Shown here in pieces: positions 28,193 through 30,966 of a DNA stretch of 64,000 nt; positions within the stretch are counted from its first letter, which is position 1; each line of letters opens with the position of its first letter. A program made the position numbers and the translations under genes. The DNA is taken from assembly GCF_002159625.1 (NCBI RefSeq), contig NZ_NFIZ01000005.1, positions 62,001 to 126,000 on the forward strand, written 5' to 3'. Below the pieces are notes generated by a model, which was given only the letters and a program-made list of their open reading frames with translations, ran no database searches and was not told the origin of the DNA. The stretch comes from Olsenella sp. An285. GTDB lineage: Bacteria; Actinomycetota; Coriobacteriia; Coriobacteriales; Atopobiaceae.

Positions 28193-28301
28193 AGCGCTTA
28201 CGTTCTCGTGCCGCGCGGCCGATATCCTGAACGCTTCAGGTGATTTCCAGGCGACCCCGCTTTTGCGGGGCGGCGTCCGCATCCTATCTCCGAGGGGAGC
28301 G

Positions 28302-29045
28302 ATGAGAGAAAGCAGGGAGATAGTCGCTCGGGTTCGCGCAGCAAGGCGGGATCCGCGTGCCGCCGACGAGCTCGTACGGAGCTACCTCCCGTTCATCAAG
28401 GCGGAGACGGCAAAGTTCATGGGCCGGCCGCCGCAGGAGGGACGAGACGACGAGCTGGGGATCGCCATGTATGCCTTTCACGAGGCGGTGATGACGTACG
28501 ACCGCGCGCGAGGAGCGTTCATACCCCTCGCCGCCCTGAGCATCAGAAACCGCCTGATTGACTTCAGGCGCAGAGAGAGCAGGCACGCCGAGGTGGTCTC
28601 TCTGGACGAGCGGCGCCCGGCGTCCGACGACGAGGACGACCGCCCGCTCGTTGAGACGCTGGCTGCAGAGAAGGACGAGATCTCGGAGCGCGAGACGCGT
28701 CTTGCGAGCCGGGCGGAGATAGCGGAATTTGCCTCGCAGCTCAGGGACTTTGGGATAACCCTCTTTGACGTGACGGAGAGCTGCCCGCAGCAGCGGCGCA
28801 CGCTCGAGGCGTGCGGCAGGGCCCTTGCGCACGCCCGAGCCAACCCCGAGCTCCTGGAGCGTCTTCTCGCCACCAAGAAGCTGCCGATCACCGACCTTGC
28901 CCGCGGCTCCGGGGTGGAGAAGAAGACCCTCGAGCGCCACCGCACCTATCTCGTGGCGCTGCTGCTGGCCTACACCAACGGCTTCGAGATCATCCGCGGA
29001 CACCTCCACAAGATTGTGGAGCGCCCGGGAGGTGACGCACGATGA
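28302..29045 (+). CDS. sigI: RNA polymerase sigma factor, SigI family
   Basis: 247 aa. The region-2-like part covers DELVRSYLPFIKAETAKFM, DELGIAMYAFHEAVMTYD and GAFIPLAALSIRNRLIDF, with the SigI-specific C-terminal domain (ITDLARGSGVEKKTLERHRTYLVALLLA, then NGFEIIRGHL). SigI factors in Bacillus and Clostridium answer to heat or to extracellular polysaccharide and are held by the membrane anti-sigma RsgI. The ATG has GAGGGGAG upstream. It overlaps rsgI by 4 bases (ATGA), so expression is coupled. Confidence 0.93.
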   Translation: MRESREIVARVRAARRDPRAADELVRSYLPFIKAETAKFMGRPPQEGRDDELGIAMYAFHEAVMTYDRARGAFIPLAALSIRNRLIDFRRRESRHAEVVSLDERRPASDDEDDRPLVETLAAEKDEISERETRLASRAEIAEFASQLRDFGITLFDVTESCPQQRRTLEACGRALAHARANPELLERLLATKKLPITDLARGSGVEKKTLERHRTYLVALLLAYTNGFEIIRGHLHKIVERPGGDAR

Positions 29046-29866
29046 GGTACCTGATCATGGAGTGCGCGCTGAGCTACGCGGTGGCCCTTGACGAGGAGGG
29101 GCGCTTCCTGCGGGTTCCCAACCTCGGATACGAGATGGGCCAGGTGGTCGAGGACGTCGTCCTCTTTGGGGAGGGGGAAGTCCTTGAATTCGGGGCCCGC
29201 TCGGCGAGAAGAACCCGCGGGCGTGTGGGGCTGATAGCCGCCGCGGCGTGTCTCGTCGTTGCCGTTGTTGCCGGTGGCGTGCTGTGGCGTCTGCCAATCG
29301 GCACGGTGTACATGAGGATCAATCCCGAGGTGAGCATGGAGGTCAACCGGCTTGACCGCGTGGTCTCCCTCGAGGGAGAGAACAACGACGGCGCCGAGCT
29401 CATCGCCGGCTTCTCCTATTACGGCCGGACGGTCGACGAGGTCACGGACGACTTGGCGGAGCTCGCCGAGGACGAGGGCTATCTCGACGAGGGCGGGACC
29501 ATCGAGGTGACGGTCGAGTCCGAAGACGAGGGGTGGAAGACCGCGACGGAGGACCGGCTGATCGTGGAGCTGGAGGTGCACCTCGACCACAGGGTGACCG
29601 TGACGGTGCCGGGCGTAAGCGATGACGTCATGAGGCCAGAGCCGGGGGACGCTTGGGATGACGATGCGGCGGACGATGCGGTCGAGGGGGATGCGGAGAC
29701 GCCGCCCCCGAGCGTGCCCGCTGGCGACGAAGACGACGACGGGGACGACGACTGGGACGACGATGGCGACGACGGGGACGACGGCGATGACGGGGACTGG
29801 GACGACGACAGCGACGACGACGGGGACGATGACGGCGACTGGGACGATGACGATGACGATGACTAA
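29042..29866 (+). CDS. rsgI: RsgI-like membrane anti-sigma factor with Asp-rich tail
   Basis: 274 aa. Residues 1-50 form the RsgI N-terminal sigma-binding region (ECALSYAVALDEEGRFLRVPN). One membrane helix is at about 62-83. The external domain starts with YMRINPEVSMEVNRLDRV. The Asn94-Pro95 pair lies where RsgI proteins are reported to self-cleave. Residues 229-274 are almost only Asp with Gly and Trp (DDDWDDDGDDGDD type), where clostridial RsgI often carries carbohydrate-binding domains. It presumably holds SigI inactive until an outside signal; the acidic tail could bind cations or a positively charged surface, which is inference. Confidence 0.88.
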   Translation: MRYLIMECALSYAVALDEEGRFLRVPNLGYEMGQVVEDVVLFGEGEVLEFGARSARRTRGRVGLIAAAACLVVAVVAGGVLWRLPIGTVYMRINPEVSMEVNRLDRVVSLEGENNDGAELIAGFSYYGRTVDEVTDDLAELAEDEGYLDEGGTIEVTVESEDEGWKTATEDRLIVELEVHLDHRVTVTVPGVSDDVMRPEPGDAWDDDAADDAVEGDAETPPPSVPAGDEDDDGDDDWDDDGDDGDDGDDGDWDDDSDDDGDDDGDWDDDDDDD

Positions 29867-30006
29867 CCCGCCTTCCGAACGGCGTCCCTAGCCCCGCGTT
29901 CTTCTCGCCAGATCTTTTTTCGAGCGACCCCGGTTTTGGTGATGCCCCCTGCGCAACCTCTCACCGCAAGGCAAGAAGAAGGCACGACAACCTCAAGGAG
30001 GACACC

Positions 30007-30912
30007 ATGAAGAGCACGAGCCTGAAGAGCATCCTTACCAGCGCGACGATGGGCGTTGCCCTTGCGGCGGTTCTCGCGGGATGCGGGTCGACCACCACGA
30101 CGAATCCCCCCGCGCAGACGAACGAGGCCCAGGTCGAGGCCCAGGCGGAGACTCCCGTCTCCCAGGCGGTGGGCACCCTGCTCCTGAGCGTCAACCCCGA
30201 GATCGAGATCGAGTATGACAACAAGGGCCTGGTCACCGAGATCGAGGGAGTGAACGACGAGGGCCGAGGCGTTGTGGGCGGCTATGGCGGGTACGAGGGG
30301 CGTGAGTGTCGGGAGGTGGTCTCCGAGCTCGTGGGGGAGATCTACGAGGCGGGCCACTTCAACCAGACCGTCGACGGACACGACCGAAACGTTGTCGTGA
30401 AGCTCGAGCAGGGCTCGAGCTACCCGGGGGAGGACTTCCTTCGCAGAATCGAGAGCGGCGTTCGCGAAACGGTCGGCGGGTTCGGCCTTGCGTCCGACGC
30501 CCTTGCGGTGGCGCCCGAGCAGCTTGACGACCGCGGGTACATCGGCCTCGATGCAGCCAAGGACATCGTCTTGTCTCAGCTGGGGCTGAGCGAGGCAAGC
30601 TTCAACGACCACGAGTACGAGCTCGATGACGGCGTCTACGAGATGGAGTTCACGTCCGGCGGCGTGGAGTACGAGTATGAGGTCGACGCTCGCACGGGCA
30701 AGGTCCTCGAGGCTGACATCGACGGCAACGACGACTGGGATGACCGCGACGACTGGGATGACTGGCACGACGACCGCTACGATCGAGACGACGACTGGGA
30801 CGATCGAGACGACGACTGGGACGACGATGACGACCTGGATGACCGTGACGACTGGGACGACGACCGCGACGACGATCGCGACGACTGGGATGACGACCGC
30901 GACGACGACTAG
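30007..30912 (+). CDS. Lipoprotein with RsgI-like and PepSY-like domains and a DW-repeat tail
   Basis: 301 aa. A lipobox (VLAGC, Cys26) ends the signal peptide. A domain beginning LLLSVNPEIEIEYDNKGLV (Asn63-Pro64) resembles the outer domain of RsgI next door. Residues about 180-238 look like PepSY (AAKDIVLSQLG, then YEVDARTGKVLEADID). From 241 to the end the protein is a repeat of DDWDD with Arg, His and Tyr, echoing the tail of RsgI. It starts 140 bases after rsgI, with AAGGAGG upstream, and ends at a clear terminator. It likely sits on the outer membrane face as a partner or sensor for the SigI/RsgI pair; the function is not known. Confidence 0.85.
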   Translation: MKSTSLKSILTSATMGVALAAVLAGCGSTTTTNPPAQTNEAQVEAQAETPVSQAVGTLLLSVNPEIEIEYDNKGLVTEIEGVNDEGRGVVGGYGGYEGRECREVVSELVGEIYEAGHFNQTVDGHDRNVVVKLEQGSSYPGEDFLRRIESGVRETVGGFGLASDALAVAPEQLDDRGYIGLDAAKDIVLSQLGLSEASFNDHEYELDDGVYEMEFTSGGVEYEYEVDARTGKVLEADIDGNDDWDDRDDWDDWHDDRYDRDDDWDDRDDDWDDDDDLDDRDDWDDDRDDDRDDWDDDRDDD

Positions 30913-30938
30913 CTGACGGCTGCAATTCACTCTCGCGT

Positions 30939-30966
30939 GAGGCGGGCCCGGTGCCCGCCTCGTTTT
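30939..30966 (+). terminator. Terminator of the sigI-rsgI-lipoprotein cluster
   Basis: GAGGCGGGC pairs with GCCCGCCTC and is followed by GTTTTT. Confidence 0.9.

Follow-up and report, generated by a model that had tools for sequence, protein, structure and literature searches.

A 64,000-nt window of the Olsenella sp. An285 genome encodes the RNA polymerase sigma factor SigI, the membrane-bound anti-sigma factor RsgI, and a lipoprotein combining a SEAL-type domain with a PepSY domain, and the three genes together form one unit. We propose, with a probability of about 0.45, that this is a SigI/RsgI unit of regulated intramembrane proteolysis with a third gene, operating as a homeostat through a partner common to the Asp-rich tails of RsgI and the lipoprotein. 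An earlier interpretation made from the letters alone (the sequence-only reading) had described overlapping sigI and rsgI genes followed by a lipoprotein gene; this cluster is real, with open reading frames (ORFs) as it described them, a 4-bp overlap and conservation as a unit. All coordinates refer to the forward strand of the window, position 1 being its first letter (Table 1).

In a collection of 84,980 species genomes, a scan detected 125 relatives, the best 80 of which are referred to below as the named loci. They belong to Olsenella, Thermophilibacter, Collinsella and many Clostridia (Lachnospiraceae, Oscillospiraceae, Flavonifractor and others), and L155, which comes from an uncultured Atopobiaceae bacterium, shows 100% identity to the lipoprotein domain of the window. 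The search of other genomes for sigI-rsgI loci with such lipoproteins, which the sequence-only reading had proposed, found all three genes in 72 of the 80 named loci, with sigI and rsgI upstream of the lipoprotein gene and on the same strand in all 72. The rsgI stop codon lies at most 519 bp from the Asn-Pro codons of the lipoprotein gene in 71 of these loci and 1303 bp away in the remaining one (L188). Thirty-four triads, 24 of the genus and 10 of the Collinsella family, were read closely; sigI and rsgI overlap by 4 bp in every one of them, and 101-212 bp separate rsgI from the lipoprotein gene. Among 100 relatives including the host, a lipoprotein match with E <1e-70 was obtained in 27, 25 of which are among the 31 same-genus genomes, while a search of 296 genomes sampled from the class found RsgI_M in 83. 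The three-gene form occurs in two phyla, represented by Coriobacteriia and Clostridia, and many of its carriers are anaerobes of gut-type kinds. A conserved fourth gene was considered and rejected, since just two neighbour clusters, one of them an ABC-ATPase, span more than one of the three clade groups.

Promoter-like sequences of the sigma-I type precede both sigI and the lipoprotein gene. A strict motif (ACCCC, 17-22 bases, CGCA or CGTA) is found before sigI in 33 of the 34 closely read triads, the exception (L067) reading ACACC, and before the lipoprotein gene in all 34, against a control frequency of 27 in 1700 windows of 110 bases. A related pattern occurs in the 72 complete named loci before sigI in 56, before the lipoprotein gene in 63 and at both sites in 50, and in 65 of 1440 control windows, each 200 bases long; the tested windows measured 230 and 170 bases. 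In the host genome the strict motif is present only twice, both times in the sigI-rsgI-lipoprotein unit. The mapped sigma-I promoters of Clostridium thermocellum show a C-run, an A/T tract and CG-x-A (PMC6056542), and a similar layout is seen here. Co-regulation of the lipoprotein with sigI, singled out beforehand as a point on which the sequence-only reading could fail, is favoured by the frequency of the motif before the lipoprotein gene (34/34 and 63/72). Because a sigma-I-type promoter precedes its gene, the lipoprotein is best read as a product of SigI, which presumably uses this promoter; the suggestion that the lipoprotein serves as a second, membrane-tethered sensor is, given this promoter evidence, not the best reading.

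Further pattern searches were made around these two sites. With up to two mismatches allowed, a related pattern of fixed spacing, which for that reason is unable to fit the lipoprotein promoter, recovers the promoter of sigI together with two additional, weak sites in the host genome. Three Clostridia genomes contain five, two and three pattern matches, of which three, one and two, respectively, are at the triad. A further strict promoter-like match, read at L117, L126, L127, L134 and L135, recurs in the genus, including the triad-less genomes G007 and G013, and the host genome is without it. By eye, the sigI promoters tend to carry an A tract after ACCCCG and the lipoprotein promoters a T tract; in the host and some close relatives a T tract is seen at the sigI promoter too.

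SigI is matched by ten NCBIfam SigI/spore_sigI models, the best at 6.3e-45 (153.6 bits) and all below the curated cut-offs, and its gene has rsgI downstream and the sigma-I-type motif upstream in the triads as given above. In RsgI, a Pfam scan detects the RsgI_M domain at 1.5e-19, while RsgI_N scores 15.8 bits, below its cut-off of 25, and was missed by the host-genome search; the RsgI model matches the N-domain structure of RsgI1 (6ivs) with a probability of 1.00, 33% identity over 46 columns and an E value of 0.067. The AlphaFold2 model comprises a small N-domain, a helix (residues 59-83), strand beta1 (85-92), Asn94-Pro95, strand beta2 (96-102) and a low-confidence tail, and Foldseek ranks B. 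subtilis RsgI (8t9n) first (1.3e-05), followed by RsgI domains of C. thermocellum. RsgI_M, the model and 8t9n together indicate that a single transmembrane helix and a SEAL/periplasmic domain are both present. The motif INP[DES][VIL] occurs in all 72 RsgIs of the complete named loci, and we take the Asn-Pro of the SEAL domain to be the self-cleavage site. C-terminal to RsgI_M there is no Pfam domain and the modelled tail is disordered, so that no carbohydrate-binding or enzyme domain is found there. A site-2 protease of the RseP type (PF02163, 1.5e-41) is encoded in the host genome.

One further RsgI_M match was found in the host genome, on another contig (contig 28; L035 / L103). This RsgI-type gene has a VNPSIEL motif and a His/Gly-rich end, its tail being not Asp-rich, and genes of this type occur in many genomes of the class.

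RsgI and the lipoprotein have their SEAL-type domain in common, a point on which the structural model, the Foldseek search and a profile comparison agree. The Pfam scan gives RsgI_M at 2.5e-11 and PepSY at 7e-10, and comparison of the RsgI and lipoprotein alignments as profiles gives a probability of 98.6% (E 6.4e-16). In the AlphaFold2 model, block means of the predicted local distance difference test (pLDDT) range from 77 to 98 across residues 51-240; the predicted fold is that of a SEAL domain, with Asn63-Pro64 in the loop between beta1 (56-61) and beta2 (65-70). Foldseek again places 8t9n first (6.9e-06) and the C. thermocellum RsgI domains next. The tail blocks reach 50-58 pLDDT and contain almost no secondary structure. 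The RsgI-like Asn-Pro domain that had been claimed for both exported proteins is thus found in both as RsgI_M, with Asn-Pro in the same place, and the PepSY-like domain claimed for the lipoprotein is borne out by the Pfam match. The lipoprotein may cleave itself, its two halves being held together.

Stand-alone SEAL-type lipoproteins whose motif reads NPEFAI or NPEIAV and whose tails are of the SGYDD type were also seen in Coriobacteriia (L071-L077), and these loci of 4-4.5 kb contain no match to the triad sigI. For stand-alone SEAL lipoproteins with SGYDD tails the start was recovered in two of ten loci, neither of them with the motif upstream. At one locus from a metagenome-assembled genome (L228), the lipoprotein frame leaves the repeat tail and runs into unrelated sequence, perhaps through a frameshift or assembly error, and it was left out of the tail tests.

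Both exported proteins end in Asp-rich tails. Over the last 40 residues the median Asp fraction is 0.60 in the 72 RsgIs that accompany a lipoprotein and 0.675 in the 65 complete lipoproteins, those cut by a contig end being left out. In 30 RsgIs from the best-scoring loci of an RsgI_M family search, which have no lipoprotein match inside their 1.5-kb flanks, the median is 0.05; most of these come from other families, so that kinship is not fully controlled. The C-terminal Asp-Asp is present in 62 of 72 RsgIs against 15.4 expected from composition and in 61 of 65 lipoproteins against 23.9 (L188, in which the start of the lipoprotein tail was not found, is left out), expectations that ignore kinship, and it is still present in 29 of 35 RsgI tails and 11 of 13 lipoprotein tails with less than 45% Asp. 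Three kinds of tail recur, namely Asp with Trp, Arg or Gly, DDTDYGPNNDGVTDY repeats, and NSGYDD repeats; no Pfam match to a known repeat family was found in the tails of the window proteins or of seven relatives. Tails varying freely or missing in orthologues would have told against their importance; their sequence and length do vary, and absence is rare, Asp being below 0.25 in seven of the 72 RsgI tails and only one (L199) being not tail-like. Of the claim that the two window proteins share the same odd Asp/Trp tail, the Asp-rich part stands for both, while the RsgI tail has just three Trp and Arg is confined to the lipoprotein tail, and so the two match in kind, not letter for letter.

The strong acidity of these tails (median net charge over the last 40 residues -26 in the 72 RsgIs and -24 in the 65 lipoproteins, with basic residues above 5% of the tail in just 11 of the 72 RsgIs) and their conserved terminal Asp-Asp would suit a sink, in which the RsgI tail senses Ca2+, metal ions or cationic antimicrobial peptides and the SigI-made lipoprotein soaks them up. 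However, some loci carry low-Asp NSGYDD-type tails in both proteins, which would be poor cation sinks, no metal-binding Pfam family was detected in seven relatives (five lipoproteins and two RsgIs, one with NSGYDD tails), and a general ligand leaves the near-private repeat kinds described below unexplained. We regard such a sink as unlikely.

The match in tail kind between RsgI and the lipoprotein of the same locus is plain. Among 64 loci the TDYG/VTDY kind is found in both proteins at 11, in the lipoprotein alone at five and in RsgI alone at none, and the SGY kind in both at five and alone once on each side; on the SigI tree of 67 loci, either repeat kind is present in both proteins at 17, in neither at 49 and in the lipoprotein alone at one. 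Partial Mantel correlations given SigI distance (64 loci) are 0.54, 0.61, 0.61 and 0.53 for words of one to four letters, with 0 of 5000 permutations for each word length, although tests of this type are lenient. In independent contrasts (56 loci, 12 tests) Tyr is significant (P 0.001) and Ala marginal (0.04). Tails shorter than 40 residues were left out of the Mantel and DNA-sharing tests, and L188 and L215, for which the start of the lipoprotein tail was not found, out of the DNA-sharing, contrast and SigI-tree tests. Repeated co-switching of tail kind is suggested, on evidence that is consistent but very thin.

The tail kind is also nearly private to the RsgI-lipoprotein pair. Matches coding for DTDYGP are located solely in rsgI and the lipoprotein gene in three of three Clostridia genomes, and the host has one DDWDD-coding match in rsgI, six in the lipoprotein gene and three in a single SLH protein gene on contig 33. 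Of 12 further genomes 11 have DDWDD matches, and those read outside the triad are not tails: among six matches read, unrelated ORFs account for three (L287, L288, L289) and a triad lipoprotein for two (L290, L291), while at the sixth (L292) no ORF of more than 60 aa with the motif was seen. A genome-wide tail habit is not supported by these coding-pattern searches.

These results bear on the explanation that the tails are passive spacers, low-complexity acidic stretches serving to span the wall and maintain the solubility of the proteins, their match resulting from descent, genome habit or sequence exchange. Much of the matching does follow clades, and at four of 62 loci, with tails of the TDYGP kind, more DNA is shared than in any of 30 codon shuffles, as exchange would give, so that gene conversion is possible there. 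At the other 58 loci, however, sharing stays within the codon-shuffled range, for which reason gene conversion was rejected as a general cause of the match; moreover, the repeat kinds are no genome habit, the terminal Asp-Asp is kept far beyond composition, and the RsgIs found without the lipoprotein have no such tails. A purely passive role therefore appears improbable.

In the homeostat that we propose, RsgI would hold SigI at the membrane and sense the load on the envelope through its tail. The SEAL-type self-cleaved halves would stay joined until the outer part of RsgI comes off, after which the RseP-type protease would cleave RsgI and free SigI. The freed SigI would then drive transcription of the sigI-rsgI operon and, through a second sigma-I-type promoter, of the lipoprotein gene, whose product could act as a lipid-anchored copy of the outer half of RsgI, with the SEAL-type domain, the Asn-Pro and a tail of like kind, plus PepSY. 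Both tails would engage one envelope partner, or each other, and the lipoprotein would relieve, buffer or compete for the load on the sensor, thereby closing a homeostatic loop. The genes, domains, promoter motifs, conservation and tail match that enter this scheme were computed, and SEAL cleavage, the RseP step and SigI release are taken from established SigI/RsgI work; we infer the shared tail partner (ligand) and the sign of the feedback. A narrower, mechanical version, which we put forward tentatively and hold to be rather doubtful, has as the chief or only dedicated product of the sigma factor a lipid-anchored, self-cleaving copy of the outer half of the sensor, in which the matched tails ending in Asp-Asp recognise each other or one partner and the copy competes for or shares the load.

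The matched tails and common release domain would also fit a positive co-sensor, that is, a lipoprotein which binds a ligand or wall component and, through contact between the tails, transfers tension to RsgI and so amplifies the signal, and the SLH protein with a DDW tail in a few genus genomes is a possible wall-side contact for it. However, this protein is absent from most triad-bearing genomes of the genus, and a co-sensor would form a positive loop because the lipoprotein gene has a SigI-type promoter, which counts against it; we consider it very unlikely.

Several observations weigh against the homeostat itself. No full-length lipoprotein match was found in six of the 31 same-genus genomes, two of which are less than 90% complete. 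Of the eight named loci without sigI-rsgI, four (L181, L184, L185, L220) are preceded by less than about 1.2 kb of sequence, and the other four (L178, L180, L218, L223) are without the pair despite 2.5-5 kb; three of the eight (L180, L184, L223) keep the promoter motif before the lipoprotein gene. The motif SVNPEIE was one of the two search patterns, and its conservation in the loci found is therefore partly due to selection by the search. In the host genome the strict pattern read backwards gives three matches, and because of this control the strict pattern alone is no proof of a two-promoter regulon; the two-promoter argument rests on the conservation of the putative promoter motif at the two sites. 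In the three Clostridia genomes the off-locus matches number two, one and one against one, two and four in the backwards controls, and variant sites escape the strict pattern, so the regulon may be larger. On the SigI tree the supported independent pairs with different kinds of RsgI tail number just two; the lipoprotein follows in a mean of 1.9 of these and never goes the opposite way, which is far from significance, and judged by lipoprotein kind two of three pairs go the same way and one does not differ. The independent contrasts are not significant for Asp (0.32) or Trp (0.48), and Trp content shows no significant covariation in the Olsenella group (rho 0.32, p 0.14, n=23).

The unit resembles two known systems. 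The SigI-RsgI of Bacillus subtilis (cell-wall stress) likewise pairs a sigma factor with a membrane anti-sigma factor bearing a SEAL domain, as the top match of the host RsgI model to 8t9n reflects, and, according to a review (PMC10202637), its cleavage products stay together until a wall defect, upon which RasP cleavage follows. As far as the accessible material goes, its SigI output consists of wall-repair genes with no RsgI-like lipoprotein named, whereas here the motif points to a lipoprotein gene. The SigI/RsgI systems of C. thermocellum (polysaccharide sensing) share the sigma factor, the anti-sigma factor and the autocleaving domain (PMC12203970), and the same paper states that SEAL-type domains cut themselves. 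However, the C. thermocellum RsgIs mostly end in carbohydrate-binding or enzyme domains and SigI there drives cellulosome genes, unlike the Asp-rich tail and tailed lipoprotein found here. PepSY lipoproteins, such as C. difficile CD1622 (PDB 4exr, 0.0096), and the PepSY protein 9vy3 (9e-08) match the lipoprotein over its PepSY part only, and these searches report no SEAL domain there.

A SEAL-PepSY lipoprotein associated with SigI/RsgI is not described among the open-access matches listed, as judged by title and the start of the abstract, a scope outside which subscription papers and preprints lie; within this scope, we found no description of a sensor and an apparently SigI-commanded lipoprotein with a common release domain and acidic tail. 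SigI/RsgI is known from wall stress and cellulose sensing, and in this form the sensor would be coupled to a copy of itself that bears a tail. If true, it offers a testable example of an ectodomain decoy tuning the sensor from which it derives, and of two proteins whose disordered tails keep to the same kind. To our knowledge, the loading of the SEAL-type sensor is still open in the B. subtilis system, and the triad would give a handle on how sensors of this type are loaded.

Table 1. Features of the sigI-rsgI-lipoprotein unit in the window.
Feature	Position	Strand	Basis
sigI, RNA polymerase sigma-I factor, 247 aa	28302..29045	+	ORF, domain and NCBIfam matches
rsgI, membrane-bound anti-sigma-I factor, 274 aa	29042..29866	+	ORF, domain matches; 4-bp overlap with sigI
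SEAL-PepSY lipoprotein gene, 301 aa	30007..30912	+	ORF, domain matches
Putative sigma-I-type promoter of sigI-rsgI (ACCCCG ... CGCATCCT)	28254..28285	+	motif conservation in triads
Putative sigma-I-type promoter of lipoprotein gene (ACCCCGGTTTT ... CGCAACCT)	29927..29959	+	motif conservation in triads
Terminator-like hairpin 3' of lipoprotein gene	30937..30963	+	2 in region vs shuffle mean of 1.1
RsgI transmembrane helix, residues 59-83	29216..29290	+	AlphaFold2 helix and hydrophobic stretch in sequence
RsgI SEAL-type (periplasmic autocleavage) domain, residues 85-188	29294..29605	+	RsgI_M 1.5e-19; top structural match 8t9n
RsgI Asn94-Pro95, predicted autocleavage site between beta1 and beta2	29321..29326	+	translation, conservation, model
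RsgI Asp-rich disordered tail, 47 aa	29723..29863	+	translation, model
Lipoprotein lipobox Cys26 (LAGC)	30082..30084	+	Cys26 >=90% conserved in 40 aligned rows
Lipoprotein SEAL-type domain, residues 56-168	30172..30510	+	RsgI_M 2.5e-11; profile match to RsgI 6.4e-16; 8t9n
Lipoprotein Asn63-Pro64, same beta1/beta2 place as in RsgI	30193..30198	+	translation, model
Lipoprotein PepSY domain, residues 179-235	30541..30711	+	PepSY 7e-10
Lipoprotein Asp/Trp/Arg tail, 61 aa, disordered	30727..30909	+	translation, model

The SLH protein encoded on host contig 33 contains three SLH matches (6.8e-14) and a DDW-rich tail ending in WDD. Near-full-length homologues occur in just four of the 31 genus genomes, for which reason it was rejected as a core part of the system; the DDW tail was read in G000, G008 and G018. 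SLH domains bind wall polymers, which makes the protein a candidate partner on the wall side in a few species. Its gene (L275:6264-7124, with a homologue in L276) is located in a 14-kb stretch that also encodes the RseP-type protease, between what we take to be a proS-like gene before it and a transglycosylase-like gene after it.

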